Of a stretch of 36,652 nt of DNA, positions 2,451 through 35,957 are shown piece by piece (the first letter of the stretch is position 1; each line of letters opens with the position of its first letter). The translations under genes were made by a program, and so were the position numbers. The stretch spans positions 1 through 36,652 of the IMG/VR virus record IMGVR_UViG_3300048588_000135; one strand, 5' to 3'. The stretch is from a virus. The notes beneath the pieces are model-generated. The model was not told where the DNA came from and made no database searches. It was given only the letters and a program-made list of their open reading frames with translations.

Positions 2451-2548
2451 GCACACAACGGTTGGGCTATGTGCAGTTGCCCTTGTAGAAACTTTAAATA
2501 TTGCACTAACCTAAATTGGGCAATTGCATACAGCCTGTGTTATGCCCC
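2451..2548 (+). repeat. attC-like recombination site C
   Basis: A long imperfect palindrome. The left core ACACAAC is at 2453-2459 and the left arm at 2461-2482 ends CAGTTGCCC. The right arm at 2518-2535 starts GGGCAATTGCATACAGCC, and the right core is G|TTATGCCCC at 2539-2548. The left core complements the start of cassette 2 (GTTGTGTG, 8 bases). The right core is the exact 10-base complement of GGGGCATAAC at 3255-3264. The left arm is two bases longer than the right, so some bases remain unpaired, as in attC sites. Confidence 0.8.
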
Positions 2549-2579
2549 GTAATTGTTTAACTTATTAATCTTAAATACA

Positions 2580-3263
2580 ATGAATTATCAAATTATTAAA
2601 GACAAAGAAAAGCTACTGAAATTTATTGAATGGCTTCCTGAATTGCAAAATGGGGAGGCTTATTATTGCTGCCTTTTTGCACGTTCAAAATATTGTAAAG
2701 ATGTTGCTCATATTAGCTCGGATAAACAACAGTTAAAAAGATTTACTTCGACTAAAGAGTTTTTGTTTGAAAAAATACAGCAATTAGAATGTGAAGTTGG
2801 CAGTTACTTTCAAAAGCATAATCCAATACCACAAGAAGCACTTGCAATTTATATTAACCCAAACCCAAGAAGCTACGAGAAAGCCGCAAAGAATGGATTA
2901 ATAAAACTTGCTGAACTAATTACAAAACCTTACGGTGGATATAACCCACACCAAGAATTAATGAGCGAAATACAAAAGGCTTGTAGTCGAAAAGTGTATT
3001 TTGATATTGATTTTGATGGCGTTGAATTGGAAGTTGTTAGAAATAGAGCAATTGAACTTATAAACGAAGATTGTTTGCATTTTTTACAAACAAGGGGCGG
3101 TTTTCATTTACTTGTTGAGTTGTCAAAAATTAATAAGCAATACGAAAAAACTTGGTACAAATCAATTTCATCTATCGAGGGAGTTGATATTAAAGGGGAC
3201 AATATGGTTCCTGTTATCGGATGCTACCAAGGTGGATATGTGCCGTCTTTTTATGGGGCATAA
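2580..3263 (+). CDS. Cassette 3 protein, possible AEP-type primase fold
   Basis: A 227-residue protein filling one cassette. I chose the ATG at 2580 because an upstream TTG would add residues from untranslated leader. Residues 142-148 (VYFDIDFDG) match the hhhDhD metal-binding motif of archaeo-eukaryotic primase-like proteins, and [10 protein letters not shown] about 35 residues later matches their sxH motif. The N-terminal 140 residues are helical, with conserved-looking aromatic residues ([23 protein letters not shown]). If correct, this is a small nucleotidyltransferase or primase-like enzyme; the third motif is not obvious. The stop codon lies in the cassette core GGGGCATAAC. This is inference from motifs only. 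Confidence 0.5.
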
Positions 3264-3393
3264 CGGTTAGGCGGTTGGCGTTCGTTGCCGACTTTGGAAC
3301 ACAAAACTTTCACTTTAAAAATAAATTTGATATGGAAAACAAAACTTCAATTAACCACGAAGACGGCAATGACGCTAACCGCTTGTTAGCTGC
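3255..3393 (+). repeat. attC-like recombination site D (start codon of next gene lies inside)
   Basis: The left core GGGGCATAAC is at 3255-3264. The left arm runs through GGTTGGCGTTCGTTGCC to 3289. The right arm GGCAATGACGCTAACCGC is at 3365-3382, and the right core G|TTAGCTGC is at 3385-3393. The left core is the perfect complement of the start of cassette 3. The right core is the perfect 9-base complement of GCAGCTAAC at 3627-3635. The central loop carries the ATG at 3332, so the next gene starts inside the site. Confidence 0.8.
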
Positions 3394-3634
3394 TGGGCTT
3401 TTTGATTTACAAGAATTTCACGGATGGCCACCAACAACAGTAAACAATTATTTTGAAGAGAAAGGGTGGGAAATGATTGATTGCTTTAATGATTATAAAT
3501 GGGCTTGGGTAAATCATTCTCTTAATAAATCTATTGTTGCAAAAACTGAAATGGTAGATGAAGATGCTTTGGGAAATGAAATGATAGTTGATATTTGGTG
3601 GTATGATGGGATTTATTCAGAGCCTTGCAGCTAA
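3332..3634 (+). CDS. Cassette 4 protein, hypothetical; start lies within attC-like site
   Basis: A 100-residue acidic protein rich in Trp and Tyr (GWPPTTVNNYFEEKGW, YKWAWVNHSL, VDIWWYDGIYSEPCS), with no recognised family. The chosen ATG at 3332 lies in the loop of site D, so the first 18 codons (MENKTSINHEDGNDANRL) come from the preceding recombination site and the rest from cassette 4. No ATG occurs early in cassette 4 itself. The stop is the TAA of the core GCAGCTAAC. The protein would therefore depend on which site lies upstream. Whether the native start is here or at a TTG at 3383 is uncertain. Confidence 0.5.
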   Translation: MENKTSINHEDGNDANRLLAAGLFDLQEFHGWPPTTVNNYFEEKGWEMIDCFNDYKWAWVNHSLNKSIVAKTEMVDEDALGNEMIVDIWWYDGIYSEPCS

Positions 3635-3671
3635 CACCGATATATCCCAATGTGGTTATATTGGTGGATAA
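3627..3671 (+). repeat. Distal boundary hairpin of plus array (shared with minus array)
   Basis: The core GCAGCTAAC at 3627-3635 leads into a hairpin: CACCGATATA at 3635-3644 pairs with TATATTGGTG at 3657-3666. The sequence from 3632 to 3671 is repeated at 29770-29809 on the minus strand with 39 of 40 bases identical, and weak similarity continues for about 15 more bases. Identity on the left stops at the variable part of the core. The right end lacks a canonical GTT core (GTGGATA). After this point ordinary phage sequence resumes. Confidence 0.8.
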
Positions 3672-3705
3672 CCCAAATGGAATAGTACTATCTGATATTG
3701 GAATA

Positions 3706-4137
3706 ATGAAAGATATATTTGTTGACATCGGAATAACAAAAGGCAGCGCGGTAGTAATGGTGGACCACGAAAACAAAAGTATTGCCGTTTTAAAAAGGTT
3801 TTGCGCAGGCGAATTAATAGATCTCTTTTTAACCGAAAAAGGCACTATTTTCATCGAGGACAGTAATTTAATCAAAGGCAGTTGGCACGGAGCAACTTCG
3901 CGCGAAAATGTTGGTAAAAATAAAGGCTTTTCATCCGCTATTTTCCAAATTCTAAACCACAAAGGAATAACTATCAAACCGCTAAAACCAAGCGGTTATA
4001 GTAGTTTCTTTGAAAAACACAAACTAGAAAAAATTTTCAAGAACAAGCCAAAAAAAACAAACACCGACCAGCGCGCAGCTCTAGCAATGGCATTACTACA
4101 TTCATCAAGCCCAATTCAAAACTATTTATTTATTTAG
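3706..4137 (+). CDS. RuvC-like Holliday junction resolvase
   Basis: A 143-residue protein with an RNase H-like RuvC arrangement. The ATG at 3706 begins MKDIFVDIGITKGSAVVMVD, with the first acidic residue at about D7 in the DxGxxxG strand. IFIEDSNLIKG places the second acid at about E51. NVGKNKGFSSAI and IKPLKPSGY follow, and TNTDQRAALAMAL near 119-130 gives the C-terminal acid. Such enzymes cut branched DNA before packaging. I chose this start because an upstream in-frame extension is encoded by the array hairpin. The stop overlaps the 20-base promoter element of the next operon. Activity is inferred from fold motifs. Confidence 0.65.
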   Translation: MKDIFVDIGITKGSAVVMVDHENKSIAVLKRFCAGELIDLFLTEKGTIFIEDSNLIKGSWHGATSRENVGKNKGFSSAIFQILNHKGITIKPLKPSGYSSFFEKHKLEKIFKNKPKKTNTDQRAALAMALLHSSSPIQNYLFI

Positions 4138-29467: not shown

Positions 29468-29485
29468 TTATGTTTCAAATATCTT

Positions 29486-29505
29486 TAATTTATAATCATT
29501 CTAAA
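29486..29505 (-). promoter_or_regulatory. Conserved 20-bp promoter element (copy 3)
   Basis: Exact copy of TTTAGAATGATTATAAATTA read on the minus strand, upstream of the XRE gene promoter. Unlike the other three copies, it is not followed by the AAAGTATAA block. It lies about 60 bases upstream of the predicted transcription start. Confidence 0.7.
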
Positions 29506-29510
29506 TAAAA

Positions 29511-29744
29511 CTATCTTTTCGTTAGAAAATAAGCGTTTCCGCGAACTTGGTTCTTTTCATTAAATGTTCTTCGAATATCTATTTCTCCATTTCTGTATAA
29601 AATACGTAGGCAGCTGCGTAGCTGTGTTATTTTCAGCCCTTCGATTTTGATTCCTTCATAAATCGTTTTGGCAGAAGTAGGAGTTTCAACACTTAGTGCT
29701 TTCACTATTTCTGCAAATACATCCCTGTTTAGCACTTTACTCAT
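29511..29744 (-). CDS. Small winged-helix-like protein at the end of the minus operon
   Basis: A 77-residue protein starting at the ATG at 29744 (MSKVLNRDVFAEIV). A longer frame from 29789 would start inside the boundary hairpin and is less likely. The layout (helices 1-30, then LKITQLRSCLRILYRNGEIDIRR, then a beta wing RGNAYFLTKR) resembles a winged-helix DNA-binding fold. It is the last gene of the minus-strand early operon, directly after the cassette array. It ends beside the 20-bp element upstream of the XRE gene. Confidence 0.6.
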   Translation of the reverse strand: MSKVLNRDVFAEIVKALSVETPTSAKTIYEGIKIEGLKITQLRSCLRILYRNGEIDIRRTFNEKNQVRGNAYFLTKR

Positions 29745-29769
29745 TGTTAATATAATTATTCGGTTTGGT

Positions 29770-29814
29770 TTATCCACCAATATAACCACATTGGGTTATA
29801 TCGGTGTTATCGGC
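29770..29814 (-). repeat. Distal boundary hairpin of minus array (shared with plus array)
   Basis: On the minus strand the core GCCGATAAC (29814 to 29806) runs into the same 40-bp hairpin found at 3632-3671 in the plus array; 39 of 40 bases are identical. CACCGATATAACC pairs with GGTTATATTGGTG. The core is complementary to the start of the DUF3560 cassette (GTTATCGGC). Phage sequence follows. Confidence 0.8.
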
Positions 29815-29816
29815 AA

Positions 29817-30470
29817 TTAAGCCCAGAGTTTCACGGCAGTTTCATGCTTAGATTTTAATTCTTTTATTTTCTTGCTCGCATAAGACAAAGCCATTCCGTG
29901 TGGCCGCTCTTTCGGATTATCTTTTAAAAATTGGTGATATACCTTTGCTTCTTCGAGTTGTATCTCAAAAAATTCTAAACTCTCAGGCATTGAAAGGTCA
30001 ATTTTATTTGCCATACTTTCCCAATATGCAGTTCTTTCACGGTAGGTATCAGCTTTTTTATATTCTTCCATTGCATTACTCATTCTATTCCAGTTTCGCT
30101 CAATTAATGCACGGTGTCGTTTTTCGCTGTGATGTCCTACTTTTATAGGTTCTGCAAGTGCCAAAAAATCTTTACCTTCATTGCTTTTTTCTTGCCAATC
30201 ACTACCCTTTTTGTCCGCATTGTCAGCCCAATTATTTAGCTTTTCAACTTTATTTCTTGCTCTTTCTTGGTTATTATAACCATCAGCACGAGTAATTGAA
30301 TAACAATACATAGGTTTTTCTTTTGTCCCTGTGTAGCCTACAAAATTGTGAACTATACATTCATTTTCTTTTCCATACTTGGTTTCAACTATAATAGTAT
30401 CACCTTTTTCGTGCTTTTCTTCGCATTGTGCCACAAATACATTTGGGCAATATTTTTTGTAAGTATTCAT
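29817..30470 (-). CDS. DUF3560-domain protein (cassette gene)
   Basis: A 217-residue protein. Residues from about 110 carry the DUF3560 pattern: GHHSEKRHRALIERNWNRMS (about 111-130), then KADTYRERTAYWESMAN, and a C-terminal EAKVYHQFLKDNPKERP. This domain is found in plasmid and phage accessory proteins, sometimes with ParB- or methyltransferase-linked genes; its activity is unknown. The N-terminal half (YKKYCPNVFVAQCEEKHEKGDTI) is beta-rich with a VTRADG-like motif. The gene fills one cassette with boundary cores that are exact complements. It is next to the methyltransferase cassette. Confidence 0.75.
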   Translation of the reverse strand: MNTYKKYCPNVFVAQCEEKHEKGDTIIVETKYGKENECIVHNFVGYTGTKEKPMYCYSITRADGYNNQERARNKVEKLNNWADNADKKGSDWQEKSNEGKDFLALAEPIKVGHHSEKRHRALIERNWNRMSNAMEEYKKADTYRERTAYWESMANKIDLSMPESLEFFEIQLEEAKVYHQFLKDNPKERPHGMALSYASKKIKELKSKHETAVKLWA

Positions 30471-30504
30471 AATATTTTGATATTTATTTGATTAAAAATT
30501 AAAA

Positions 30505-30602
30505 GCCGATAACACGGTATATATGCCATGCGCCAATTAGTGTCGTGCTATTTTTATGTTTATCGCGGGCGCACGTCACATATACCCATCGTTATATGAA
30601 AG
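30505..30602 (-). repeat. attC-like site before the DUF3560 cassette
   Basis: Read on the minus strand: core CTTTCATATAAC (30602 to 30591), left arm ending GACGTGCGCC, a loop, right arm GGCGCATGGCATATATACC, and the core G|TTATCGGC (30513 to 30505). The left core complements the start of the methyltransferase cassette at 14 of 15 positions. The right core is the exact complement of GCCGATAAC at 29806-29814. Confidence 0.82.
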
Positions 30603-30668
30603 TGGGCAGACCTACTTCGATTTAAGTTCTGTGAGAAAGAAAAAAGAAAAAATCTGCCCACGCTCATT

Positions 30669-31406
30669 TTAAAGAGATTTATTTATGACAACAATTTTAC
30701 CTCCTACCATTGTACCACTTTCTTTGAAAGAACCTTTTTCAATATCAATCACTTCGGCTTCAACTTCATCAAGCCAATTTTTAAAATCAACTTGCTTTTT
30801 TTGGCTTCCGTTTACCCAACTTTCAGAAGTAATGCAAACCAATCTACCGCCACGAGAAAGGCACTCGTACATTTCTTTTAAGTGGTCAATATCTTGGTTT
30901 TTTGTAAATGGTGGGTTTGCAATAATCTTACTATAAGTTTTGCCATTGTGCTTAAAGAAATCATCTCCAATCAAATTAAAACGCAAACCACTTTTATTCA
31001 ATATAACTGTGTTTACATCCATCAATTCAAAGCAATCAGGTATAACATCGCAAACTTTGTTTATTGCCTTGATAATTGCACCCTGTCCAGCACTTGGCTC
31101 TAAAATTGTATCGTGTTGTTTAAGTTCAGCTAAATAAACCAATTCGTCTGCAAGTTTTTCAGGTGTCGCAAAAAACTGAAATTCTTTTTTTAAGTTTCGT
31201 TTTTCACCATTTGCAATTTGGTCTAATAAGTCTGTCGGGTCGGTAGCGAATACAAACCCAAATACCTTACCACCTTTCCATTTACCTCCAATCAATTCAA
31301 GTGCTTTTGCTACTTCTTGATAAAGTTTACGGTCAAGTTGTACGTTTGGGAGTTTTACCGTTGTTCCATCAACTGTGCAATTCTGCAATACTTCTTCTTT
31401 TGTCAT
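30669..31406 (-). CDS. N6-adenine DNA methyltransferase (cassette gene)
   Basis: A 245-residue methyltransferase. EPSAGQGAI at 103-111 is the AdoMet-binding motif I, and IIANPPFTKN at about 161-170 is the catalytic NPPF motif IV of adenine-N6 enzymes. FFATPEKLADELV before motif I is typical of the type I-like M subunit architecture. The protein is small, with no target-recognition domain that I can see, so specificity is unclear. It could protect phage DNA from host restriction. It is preceded by a 25-residue basic miniprotein in the same cassette. Confidence 0.85.
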   Translation of the reverse strand: MTKEEVLQNCTVDGTTVKLPNVQLDRKLYQEVAKALELIGGKWKGGKVFGFVFATDPTDLLDQIANGEKRNLKKEFQFFATPEKLADELVYLAELKQHDTILEPSAGQGAIIKAINKVCDVIPDCFELMDVNTVILNKSGLRFNLIGDDFFKHNGKTYSKIIANPPFTKNQDIDHLKEMYECLSRGGRLVCITSESWVNGSQKKQVDFKNWLDEVEAEVIDIEKGSFKESGTMVGGKIVVINKSL

Positions 31407-31418
31407 TATTTTATGTTT

Positions 31419-31496
31419 TTAAAATTTCCCACGCTCATTTTTCTTTTTTCTTTTACGTGCTTCAATGAAAGTGTAGTGCGTAAAATCCACCTTCAT
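31419..31496 (-). CDS. 25-residue basic miniprotein (cassette)
   Basis: A short frame starting at the ATG that overlaps the recombination core GTTATATG, reading MKVDFTHYTFIEARKRKKKN plus ERGKF. It is strongly basic. A longer frame from upstream would be read through the recombination site, so I prefer this start. It ends 12 bases before the methyltransferase start codon. It may serve as a leader or coupled peptide for that gene, or be an independent miniprotein. Confidence 0.4.
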   Translation of the reverse strand: MKVDFTHYTFIEARKRKKKNERGKF

Positions 31497-31598
31497 ATAA
31501 CACGGGTTTTGTGCAATTTGCCCTATTAACATTTGTCTATAATTTGAACATTTGTGCAAGGGCAAACTGACACAAAGCCCAAAAACGTTAGCCACAAG
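31490..31598 (-). repeat. attC-like site before the methyltransferase cassette
   Basis: On the minus strand: core CTTGTGGCTAAC (31598 to 31587), then TTTGGGCTTTGTGTCAG with TTTGCCC, a loop, GGGCAAATTGCACAAAACCC, and the core G|TTATATGAAGG (31501 to 31490). The left core matches the complement of the start of the neighbouring cassette at 11 of 12 positions. The palindrome is imperfect, with unpaired bases. Confidence 0.82.
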
Positions 31599-31599
31599 T

Positions 31600-32103
31600 T
31601 TAAGACCTGCGTTCATTTAAGCACTCTTCTACTACATTTGAAACAGCCAAAGACATTTTAGATTTGAAAATAGCATCTTGTTTCAGTTCGTTTGAAATTT
31701 TATCAAATAAACCATCGTTGTTTGAAATAATATTTCTTGCAACTTTATGCGAAAATGCTGTAATTATTGAGTTCTTAAAATCATCAGTTCTAATTACCGA
31801 ATTAAAGCTATCTGAAATCAATTGCTTTAAAAATGTTGTGTTTTCTGAAACAACCGCTTCAACTAATTTTTTCAATGGAGAACTGTAATCTGTCAATACT
31901 TTTTGTATGCTTTCATTCATTGCAATTTGAGCAGTTCTTAAAATGTCCTGCTCCAATGTAATCGGTAGGTGTTTCTTTTCCGTTTTGGTATTAATTGCTT
32001 CAACTTGCATTTTTACATCTTCACGGAATTTTGAGTTTTCTGCTCTTAAATCTTGAACAGCTTTAAATAAGTTGTCAATTGTTTGTTGTTCTTTCGTTGT
32101 CAT
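31600..32103 (-). CDS. Cassette protein, helical, hypothetical
   Basis: A 167-residue protein that is almost entirely helical. Residues 1-45 form a likely coiled coil (TIDNLFKAVQDLRAENSKFREDVK), then charged helices (LPITLEQDILRTAQIAMNES, SPLKKLVEAVVSENTTFLKQL). No family recognised. It fills its cassette from the start core GTTAGCCACAGG to the end core CTTGTGGCTAAC. Function unknown; an oligomeric scaffold is possible. Confidence 0.6.
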   Translation of the reverse strand: MTTKEQQTIDNLFKAVQDLRAENSKFREDVKMQVEAINTKTEKKHLPITLEQDILRTAQIAMNESIQKVLTDYSSPLKKLVEAVVSENTTFLKQLISDSFNSVIRTDDFKNSIITAFSHKVARNIISNNDGLFDKISNELKQDAIFKSKMSLAVSNVVEECLNERRS

Positions 32104-32137
32104 AATTATTTAATTTTAAGGTGATTATTAATAAAAC

Positions 32138-32276
32138 CCTGTGGCTAACAATGTGTATAATTAATTGGGGTTGCAGTGCGGTTTTCAGCGTTTTACCTCG
32201 CCCCAGCGTTCAGTGTCTTTGATTGGTTCGTGCCACGTAATCCCCAACTAATCATACACTAAACGTTAGCCGCAAG
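32138..32276 (-). repeat. attC-like site before the helical cassette protein
   Basis: On the minus strand: core CTTGCGGCTAAC (32276 to 32265), left arm GTGTATGATTAGTTGGGG, a loop of about 60 bases, right arm CCCCAATTAATTATACAC, and the core G|TTAGCCACAGG (32149 to 32138). Both arms are longer than in the other sites, giving a strong hairpin. Confidence 0.8.
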
Positions 32277-32277
32277 C

Positions 32278-32349
32278 CTACCGACCACGTTTACGAGCTT
32301 GTTTTGCACGTTTAGACGCAGCCCTTGACTTTTTCTGTTTATTAGTCAT
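32278..32349 (-). CDS. 23-residue Arg/Lys-rich miniprotein (cassette)
   Basis: A frame that begins at the ATG overlapping the previous gene's stop (ATGA) and reads MTNKQKKSRAASKRAKQARK plus RGR. Eleven of its residues are Lys or Arg, so a nucleic-acid-binding peptide is plausible. The stop immediately precedes the recombination core. It is too short to be found by default length cut-offs. Because it is coupled and its frame is open, I list it at moderate confidence. Confidence 0.45.
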   Translation of the reverse strand: MTNKQKKSRAASKRAKQARKRGR

Positions 32350-32471
32350 GGACTTTTACGACTTGGTTTTGAACCCGAATATTTCATTTCAGGTAAATCG
32401 GAATAAGGATTTGTGTAATCCATCATTGTTGCTGCTAATCCCAACATTAGGGCTGCTTTTTTCATACTCAT
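32346..32471 (-). CDS. 41-residue cassette miniprotein
   Basis: A frame starting ATGAGTATG at 32471 and reading MSMKKAALMLGLAATMMDYT then NPYSDLPEMKYSG, ending SKSRKSP-like in a basic tail. The N-terminal 18 residues are hydrophobic after two lysines, so a membrane or secretion segment is possible. Its stop overlaps the start of the 23-residue gene. Unknown function. Confidence 0.45.
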   Translation of the reverse strand: MSMKKAALMLGLAATMMDYTNPYSDLPEMKYSGSKPSRKSP

Positions 32472-32499
32472 ATTGTTATTTTGTTTGTGAGAACTGTCA

Positions 32500-32535
32500 G
32501 GCGGCTAGTGCAAAGCCGTAAAACGTTAGCGGCAA
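32500..32535 (-). repeat. Degenerate attC-like site
   Basis: On the minus strand the core GCCGCTAAC (32533 to 32525) is followed by GTTTTACGGCTTTGCACTAGCCGCC. The expected right core is replaced by CTAGCCGC; its TAGCCGC part still complements the core at the far end of the next cassette. Only a short GGC/GCC stem remains, so the site is probably inactive or shortened. Confidence 0.5.
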
Positions 32536-32537
32536 CC

Positions 32538-32825
32538 TTACAGAAACTCATCAACCTTGTGAGTGTCTAATCCTGTATAAGTGTGTATTAGTTTCCGCAA
32601 AGCGGAACCACAACTTTCTACCATCTTAATTCTATCTTCAATAGCCATACCATCGTAATCTTGGTTATCATACATTTTGTCCATTAAAGCAGTTTGAAAA
32701 ATAATAGTTGCGTTCCTAAAATCCCTTTTGGAATAATTAGGTTTGTTTTCATTACCTTTTGCATCTGCATTTTGGGTTAGCAAGTCGTTTGCTATTGATT
32801 CAAGTTCTGTTTTGTAATTTCTCAT
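32538..32825 (-). CDS. Cassette protein, hypothetical
   Basis: A 95-residue protein. I start it at the ATG at 32825 (MRNYKTELESIANDLLTQ), because an upstream in-frame extension is encoded by the recombination site. It is helical and acidic, with a Lys/Asn-rich loop (ADAKGNENKPNYSKRDFRN) and a C-terminal segment KLIHTYTGLDTHKVDEFL. No family recognised. It fills a cassette between sites at 32855-32986 and 32500-32535. Confidence 0.6.
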   Translation of the reverse strand: MRNYKTELESIANDLLTQNADAKGNENKPNYSKRDFRNATIIFQTALMDKMYDNQDYDGMAIEDRIKMVESCGSALRKLIHTYTGLDTHKVDEFL

Positions 32826-32854
32826 TTTATTATTGATTTGTGAAGAAAGGCAGC

Positions 32855-32986
32855 CGCACACACGTGCTATACAAAAGAGGCGGTTCGGTACTCCGCAGGA
32901 GCATTTATGGTTAAACAAACATTTGTACTCCGCATCAACTTTAGTGCTAATAATCGCCTCCTTCGTATAGCACCATACGTTGTAAG
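32855..32986 (-). repeat. attC-like site with non-canonical right core
   Basis: On the minus strand: core CTTACAAC (32986 to 32979), left arm GGTGCTATACGAAGGAGGCG, a loop, right arm CGCCTCTTTTGTATAGCAC, and a right core GTGTGCGGC instead of the expected GTTAGCGGC. The left core complements the start of the 59-residue cassette at 13 of 14 positions. The palindrome is well preserved despite the core change. Confidence 0.7.
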
Positions 32987-32991
32987 TAATA

Positions 32992-33171
32992 CTACTTTTG
33001 TACTCCGTAAGAAACTATAATTTTATTAAGCACTTGTATTTTTGCTTTAATGCACGTTATTATTTTTTTATCGTGTTTAGTGAATTTTAAGTTATTCATA
33101 CTACTTGTTAAGTCTATTGCAGTTATTTCGTGCCTTAGCTCTTTTATTTCTCTTTGTATTAATTCAATCAT
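32992..33171 (-). CDS. 59-residue cassette protein, hypothetical
   Basis: A helical, basic protein (MIELIQREIKELRHEITAID, SMNNLKFTKHDKKIITCIKA, IQVLNKIIVSYGVQK). Its first 20 residues could form a short coiled coil. It fills a cassette of about 230 bases, starting about 40 bases after the core. I recognise no family. Its open frame ends exactly before the CTTACAAC core. Confidence 0.55.
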   Translation of the reverse strand: MIELIQREIKELRHEITAIDLTSSMNNLKFTKHDKKIITCIKAKIQVLNKIIVSYGVQK

Positions 33172-33200
33172 TTTATTTTGTTTTAGTTAATATTTCCGTA

Positions 33201-33256
33201 CTACTTACAACAACACCTAAAACGCCACTACGCGGACGTTTAGCTAGGCGTTAATC
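33201..33256 (-). repeat. attC-like site, short (about 56 bases)
   Basis: On the minus strand: core GATTAAC (33256 to 33250), GCCTAGCTAAACG, a short centre, then GTTTTAGGTGTTGTT and the core G|TTGTAAG (33211 to 33204). The palindrome is short but continuous. The right core fits the complement of the end of the 59-residue cassette. Confidence 0.65.
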
Positions 33257-35679: not shown

Positions 35680-35957
35680 AAAGTAAAAGAATGAAAGCGC
35701 TAGAGGGCGCAGCGCATAGCTATATTGAGGCGTTTTGTAAGAAGCAAGAGATGGAATTTGAGGGCACTATCGGAGTGTGTGAAATAGTTATCTGCAGCGA
35801 CTTCTATTTCAGTTTTCAGGATATAGTTCACGACATTGAAACAAAGCAGCCAAAAGGTCTTATAATTAAATGGTATTATGATTCAATTGATTTTCACCCG
35901 AAAGTTTTAAACTATAAAAGTTTTTGCATTGGCTTAAGGTTTGAACATATTGTTTAG
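35676..35957 (+). CDS. Hypothetical early protein
   Basis: A 93-residue protein (MKSKRMKALEGAAHSYIEAF, CKKQEMEFEGTIGVCEIVIC) with a beta-rich end (PKGLIIKWYYDSIDFHPKVL, NYKSFCIGLRFEHIV). It overlaps the preceding gene by four bases. Its stop lies inside the 20-bp promoter element at 35953. No family recognised. Confidence 0.6.
   Translation: MKSKRMKALEGAAHSYIEAFCKKQEMEFEGTIGVCEIVICSDFYFSFQDIVHDIETKQPKGLIIKWYYDSIDFHPKVLNYKSFCIGLRFEHIV

Follow-up and report, generated by a model that had tools for sequence, protein, structure and literature searches.

Integrons are known mainly from bacteria, and the cassettes of phages have so far been reported as stray fragments. Cassettes also insert at attG sites, which are genomic sites of a non-attI, GTT-like kind. 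The known XerA recombinase resolves chromosome dimers at dif. Arrays of attC sites without intI (CALINs) in virulent phages, Polaribacter phage P12002L included, are described in passages of Qi et al. 2023 (PMC9892861), which call the attC directions divergent and report that IntI1 recombined attC sites of phages, a P12002L attC among them. These passages mention no duplicated 68-bp site, reversed units or XerA-like recombinases beside arrays. The North Sea flavophages Freya, Danklef, Ingeline and Leef were presented by Bartlau et al. 2021 (PMC8776804), where, in the parts used here, an integrase is annotated and taken as a sign of temperate life; neither cassettes nor integrons came up in a term search of the main text.

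The window is the whole stretch of DNA analysed here, the 36,652 nucleotides of IMG/VR record IMGVR_UViG_3300048588_000135. It is a complete, circular siphophage genome with a terminal repeat of 147 bp and contains genes for the small and large terminase, portal, protease, major head/capsid and tape-measure proteins, as well as a recombination-type exonuclease. An earlier note on this DNA had claimed that positions 3632-3671 (+) and 29770-29809 (−) are identical at 39 of 40 positions, and comparison confirmed the figure; each copy terminates an array of integron-type cassettes. The identity was said to begin at the AAC of the cassette core and to continue slightly into phage DNA. It does so: the sequence shared by the two sites starts at TAAC, and beyond the 40-mer the likeness extends at 92% over 53 bp, to about position 3684. 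A 19-nt core with up to 3 mismatches was found at two places in the window, both of them the sites, where shuffled sequences predict 0.02. On the 3' side of the site GGTG is followed by GATAAC or GATAAA, and the GTTRRRY R' box (paired with R'') of a classical terminal attC was not found there. The layout is common to both sites, with the cassette array followed by the site, one short phage gene and then the promoter-like repeat TTTAGAATGATTATAAATTACA.

3635-3684, + strand: left attI-like acquisition site (proposed); palindrome at 3635-3666, cut at 3634/3635 (AA|C), 39/40 repeat, another cassette at the cut in the sister phage.
3706-4137, + strand: phage gene directly 3' of the left site (from the ORF list), the last before the next promoter-like repeat TTTAGAATGATTATAAATTACA at 4131.
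29757-29806, − strand: right attI-like acquisition site (proposed); palindrome at 29806-29775, cut between 29807 and 29806, 39/40 repeat, another terminal cassette in the sister phage.
29511-29744, − strand: phage gene directly 3' of the right site (from the ORF list), the last before the next promoter-like repeat at 29472-29509.

The repeat TTTAGAATGATTATAAATTACA occurs four times (4131 and 35950 on the + strand, 33821 and 29509 on the − strand) at the starts of transcription units and resembles an early-promoter family. A similar element sits before the array of G005, a contig related to the window by its large terminase (TerL).

The cassettes of both arrays were delimited by their AA|C boundaries and R boxes as follows.

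912-1265, + strand: gene B, a phage gene forming the 5' border of the left array; cut at 1262/1263, sequence common with the sister up to 1262 and different cassettes thereafter.
1263-1629, + strand: cassette C, a 5' attC body and ORF 1360-1623; found next to the hairpin in the sister, its 5' body unaltered and its 3' neighbour different.
1630-2458, + strand: cassette D, a 5' body and ORFs 1785-2063, 2071-2253 and 2253-2441, with end repeats; missing in the sister, which has a 4.4-kb cassette before E.
2459-3263, + strand: cassette E, a 5' attC body and ORF 2580-3263; the block shared with the sister begins at its AA|C, after a different cassette.
3264-3634, + strand: cassette X, the terminal one in the window, with an ORF that starts inside the attC body of X itself; in the sister, C separates X from the hairpin.
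29807-30591, − strand: cassette P, encoding a DUF3560 protein (Pfam), terminal in the right array; another cassette takes its place in the sister.
30592-31587, − strand: cassette Q, methyltransferase-like on weak Pfam matches, with R-box ends and a 3' end common with the sister.
31588-32265, − strand: cassette R, with AA|C boundaries and inverted R boxes.
32266-32979, − strand: cassettes S (32266-32525) and T (32526-32979), with AA|C boundaries and imperfect R boxes.
32980-33238, − strand: cassette U, with AA|C boundaries; the 5' limit of the right array past U is uncertain.

Inverted R boxes mark most cassette ends (imperfectly in S and T), and attC-like hairpins were found both in the arrays of the window and upstream of the recombinase genes of its relatives, so that attC sites are present as in integrons. 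The 8-base ends of the two last cassettes, GCAGCTAA and GCCGATAA, are inverted repeats of their own starts, GTTAGCTGC and GTTATCGGC. With at least two attC sites each and no PF00589 protein in the window, the left and right arrays are CALINs, that is, elements without an integron integrase. In the window (3332-3634) and in Freya_10 (L036, 3844-4089) an ORF starts within the attC body, and the hairpin is partly coding.

Searches of IMG/VR with the 39-mer and the 19-mer core matched only one other phage, and relatives sought with single flanking proteins gave this sister phage or nothing. The 19-mer had one match in 84,980 species genomes, in Alteromonas, which lacked the palindrome and was taken as chance. 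The hairpin that the earlier note had wished to trace in related phages and hosts was thus met as a 40-mer in the sister alone; an empty equivalent site was recovered in Freya_1.

The sister, IMGVR_UViG_3300048834_000177, is a single IMG/VR contig that carries both sites, and its backbone is 99.8-99.96% identical to that of the window. The left array reads B-C-D-E-X-site in the window and B-N1-BIG-E-X-C-site in the sister, BIG being a cassette of 4.4 kb; the right array reads Q-P-site and Q-P'-site. All breaks between the two phages fell at AA|C, and the sequence of the site was constant, so the variants at the same join that the earlier note had wished to see exist at both cuts. Gene B ends in CCTACAA, followed by TGACAAG (C) in the window or CGTTGAG (N1) in the sister. 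X ends in GCAGCTAA, followed by CACCGATA in the window and by TGACAAGTG (C) in the sister. C ends in AAGCATAA, followed by CGCACGATTG of the D body in the window and by CACCGATA in the sister; its 5' body is the same in both phages, but the 3' side reads CGCACG or CACCGA. E starts with CGGTTGGG whether it stands behind D or behind BIG and retains its 5' body. The ends of P and P' are alike (...ATAA|CACCGA). Read from these alignments, the mobile unit is the stretch from one AA| to the next, in which the attC body comes first, at the 5' end, and the ORF second. A classical unit, made of an ORF and its own 3' attC, would demand two attCs each for C and for X.

Whichever cassette stands next to gene B provides its stop codon (window, CAA|TGA; sister, CAA|CGTTGA), and the choice of cassette therefore changes the end of a phage protein. 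The large cassette of the sister (L009:3711-8148) is a multi-gene unit with 31-bp inverted R-box ends and genes for an SNF2-type helicase, a PAPS-reductase/DUF3440 protein and a ParB-like protein; the last two we take to be IbrA/IbrB-like. It is possibly a defence or counter-defence module. A stretch of 165 bp at 35733-35897 of the window is missing in the sister, an indel within an early gene region.

Duplication of such a site is not unique to the window, since Polaribacter phage P12002L shows it as well. Two separate arrays of P12002L end in one identical 68-bp site that starts at AA|C, with the junctions GGTAA|CAACGGATAAAACAAGTTTTACC... and CCTAA|CAACGGATAAAACAAGTTTTACC..., and phage P12002S has the same 68-bp site behind a different cassette. 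No match of P12002L to the Freya-type recombinase was obtained in the phage search, where all 19 Polaribacter records belonged to Freya, Danklef and Leef.

The same arrangement was found in cultured phages beside a recombinase gene. G005 has an array of ten hairpins, and at the opposite end of the contig the gene of a 266-aa tyrosine recombinase lies directly behind TAA|C. A search with this protein led to Polaribacter phage Freya. In Freya_1 the site is empty (TTTACAA|CACCCC); it reads ...TTTATTGTTTACAA|CACCCCTATAACAACAATAAG and is followed by the tyrosine recombinase gene. Freya_10 and Freya_1 have 0 mismatches over 43,978 bp, and their sole difference is 4,942 bp of cassettes at AA|C beside the recombinase gene. 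Freya_2, 5, 6, 8 and 9 have subsets of these cassettes or alternatives, every one joined to an unaltered CACCCC. Danklef_5 and Danklef_2 differ by one methylase unit of 781 bp, body first and with AA|C ends, and a 1,169-bp unit is common to Danklef and Freya (99.6% identity), where its neighbours on either side differ. Such an arrangement also precedes the recombinase genes of Ingeline (CTAA|CACCCACATAAC) and Leef (CTAA|CGCCCCTATATAC). In Danklef (L045-L049) the arrays persist while the recombinase gene is disrupted, only its C-terminal part being annotated, possibly a step toward orphan sites. Contig G004 (L015), with a repeated unit of body and methylase, also fits and was left uncounted; the evidence comes from contig ends, and the terminal site is off the consensus.

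Taken together, the natural variants demonstrate, at the level of sequence, a fixed site, AA|C junctions, a unit of 5' body and ORF, and gain and loss of units beside the site. The 40-mer is very probably the fixed, attI-like phage half of a cassette-acquisition site, placed once in each of two early operons. We read it as a fixed phage site and not as the attC of the last cassette because the terminal cassettes vary, the site is constant and the body moves 5' of the ORF. The earlier note had proposed as much, and the proposal is supported: the sister exchanges the terminal cassettes at both sites and P12002L repeats the pattern. Insertion beside the site, at the 3' end of the operon, agrees with the Freya isolates, in which AA|C is empty or filled to varying degrees, and with the sister variants; the proposed reversal of a classical attI arrangement agrees with the variants of the sister, Freya and P12002L.

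In the proposed mechanism a cassette would be a circle in which an ORF is joined to an attC hairpin body, and a single cut in the ORF strand, at AA|C (G|TT on the opposite strand), would insert it immediately 5' of the site. Every new cassette would therefore be the 3'-most gene of the array, and the site (CACCGATATAWCCC...) would stay unaltered. We infer such a circular intermediate and single-strand chemistry. In its recombination polarity the array would correspond to an ordinary integron array with all ORFs facing back toward attI. Since the ORFs face the site, a promoter (Pc) at attI could not serve the cassettes; the promoter-like repeats stand at the operon end opposite the site.

No tyrosine recombinase (PF00589) is encoded in the window or in the sister, and the two sites of the window are therefore probably served in trans. 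The likely enzyme would be a XerA-like tyrosine recombinase of the type that related Bacteroidota phages encode next to their equivalent site; the host or a co-infecting phage would supply it. The catalytic residues R, K, H, R, H and Y are invariant in an alignment of four such recombinases, whose best solved matches are archaeal XerC-like/XerA proteins (PDB 4a8e, 5hxy). The alignment of IntI4 (2a3v) with them is split in two by about 48 additional residues. The span from LR..E to HxLRH has a median of 86 residues in the recombinases of the relatives versus 134 in IntI, and the IntI-specific insertion is missing; the score with TIGR02249 was 124 bits, below the cut-off of 265. In a tree of 14 IntI proteins from the order of the Alteromonas control genome, 4 Xer rows and the phage proteins, IntI fell on a separate side at 100/100, and the phage recombinases stood apart with moderate support (91/45). 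An intI with its specific insertion was thus found neither in the window or sister nor among the recombinases of the relatives.

The acquisition site may be real and its enzyme an IntI-type integron integrase of the host, a reading we regard as rather unlikely. It would suit a window devoid of tyrosine recombinases, and IntI1 recombined phage attCs, including one of P12002L, according to passages of Qi et al. 2023 (PMC9892861). However, the gene adjoining the site in related phages encodes a XerA-like enzyme that lacks the IntI insertion and falls outside the IntI clade, and no IntI-linked array with a site of this type was found. The Bacteroidota IntI suggested in the earlier note is accordingly not the enzyme type to which the relatives point. 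Annotation of Bacteroidota plasmid XerA neighbourhoods revealed no obvious cassette array.

The XerA-like enzyme was followed across IMG/VR with the alignment of four recombinases, which retrieved 80 viral loci, 78 of them with a mapped gene start. Upstream of the gene 218 attC-like hairpins were detected in 221,852 bp (0.98/kb), and downstream 6 in 278,983 bp (0.02/kb), with the same home-made scanner, which detects few canonical attCs and was used for this contrast alone. The fold was better on the ORF strand in 144 of the 170 phage hairpins detected on both strands (144:26), against 9 versus 11 in a classical control in which few canonical attCs were detected, and nothing here is built on this bias. 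An AA|C core was present within 75 bp upstream of the start codon at 78/78 loci, in a search that presupposed this form; the consensus was TAA|CTACTATATGTAA. A matrix of these sites ranked the two sites of the window 28th and 80th of about 73,000 positions, so the family likeness of the window site itself is weak; the nearest recombinase-linked sites were those of Freya (10/12 bases) and Ingeline (9/12). Locus pairs were compared where the 300 bp downstream of the cut were at least 90% identical. With 8 pairs dropped as redundant or without upstream sequence, all 18 informative pairs, not all of them independent, diverged 3-6 nt upstream of the cut. In five contigs the cut coincides with the contig end, as expected if the assembler faced many alternative sequences there. 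G|TT (AA|C) junctions were thus met in the sister, Freya, Danklef, P12002L/S and the 18 IMG/VR pairs, with the exact boundary ambiguous within the shared AA.

These junctions bear on a second alternative, that homologous or illegitimate recombination between phages shuffles cassettes without a site-specific enzyme and the repeat is a shared border. The window phage has no integrase and does have a recombination-type exonuclease gene, and cassettes are common to related phages. Nevertheless, 18/18 informative pairs break within 3-6 nt of AA|C without flanking homology on the cassette side, and whole cassettes distinguish Freya isolates that have zero SNPs between them; shuffling of this kind is very improbable.

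On the ORF strand the site folds, with DNA parameters, as a 32-nt hairpin CACCGATATAACCC-AATGT-GGTTATATTGGTG; the energy is −9.0 kcal/mol (z −4.1) for the right copy and −6.4 (z −2.5) for the left. No such fold forms at the equivalent, recombinase-linked sites of Freya, Ingeline, Leef and G005, and the hairpin was therefore rejected as an essential feature. Of the hairpin acquisition site put forward in the earlier note, the site stands, fixed and used, and the need for a palindrome does not. P12002L has an inverted repeat just past the cut with a loop too short for a stable fold. Because the empty Freya site has the form TTATTGTTTACAA|CACCCC|TATAACAACAATAA, AA|CACCGA|TATAACCC may be read as an R arm, a 6-nt spacer and an L arm, and the 40-mer would then be a half-site with its own inverted copy. 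The hairpin may aid the use of an orphan site as folded DNA, have a second role or be incidental.

The palindrome might instead act chiefly in RNA, terminating transcription or serving as a processing hairpin where the array gives way to the next gene, which would agree with its stability in the RNA sense and its intergenic position within one operon. This is nonetheless a highly unlikely explanation: no T-run follows the palindrome, the equivalents in Freya, Ingeline, Leef and G005 are unfolded, and the AA|C junctions are left unexplained. A double role in acquisition and termination or processing is possible. The classical reading, in which the 40-mer is the attC of one last cassette copied in two arrays, as the earlier note had offered by way of alternative, has a palindrome starting with AAC where the last attC would be, but is hardly credible: four terminal cassettes with unlike R boxes (X, C, P and P') carry the same sequence, C is followed by the 40-mer in the sister and by the D body in the window, changing its 3' side by position and keeping its 5' body, the 3' side lacks a GTTRRRY box (GGATAAC), the body moves with the ORF to its 3' in every window/sister, Freya and Danklef variant compared, and the 40-mer was absent from internal cassette positions in IMG/VR and the 84,980 species genomes scanned.

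With the acquisition site as the preferred reading, we think it reasonably likely that a reversed, phage-borne integron lineage extends across Bacteroidota phages, with a XerA-like, non-IntI enzyme, attC-first cassettes and a position at the 3' ends of early operons, the orphan duplicated sites of the window and P12002L being served in trans. Such a system is new relative to the literature searched. In that light cassette capture seems to be a standing function of phages; it has a recombinase lineage and a polarity of its own, and its docking sites are duplicated in early operons. It would provide a second, apparently non-IntI case of how a Xer-type recombinase turns into a cassette-capture enzyme. 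The difference between Freya_1 and Freya_10, zero SNPs and 0 to 4.9 kb of cassettes, suggests exchange visible within one isolation campaign, and the mechanism is therefore directly testable in cultured phages.

Compared with known systems, the locus shares with integrons the inverted R-box cassette borders, the G|TT (AA|C) cut, the small co-oriented ORFs and growth beside one fixed site, which stays constant while terminal cassettes vary. It differs in that the attC is not 3' of the ORF but 5' of it and moves with it (one exception, L086/L095, has a common ORF and different 5' bodies), that the ORFs face the site and that the newest gene is 3'-most. The recombinase of the relatives is XerA-like without the IntI insertion, and the window has two orphan sites and no integrase. 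The attC arrays of virulent phages in passages of Qi et al. 2023 (PMC9892861) are likewise phage CALINs without intI, and P12002L is common to both studies. XerA-type recombinases (4a8e, 5hxy) are the closest solved sequence match of the phage recombinases, whose gene here adjoins a cassette array. At attG sites, too, insertion takes place at non-attI, GTT-like sequences; a site of the window type differs in being fixed, duplicated and repeatedly used.
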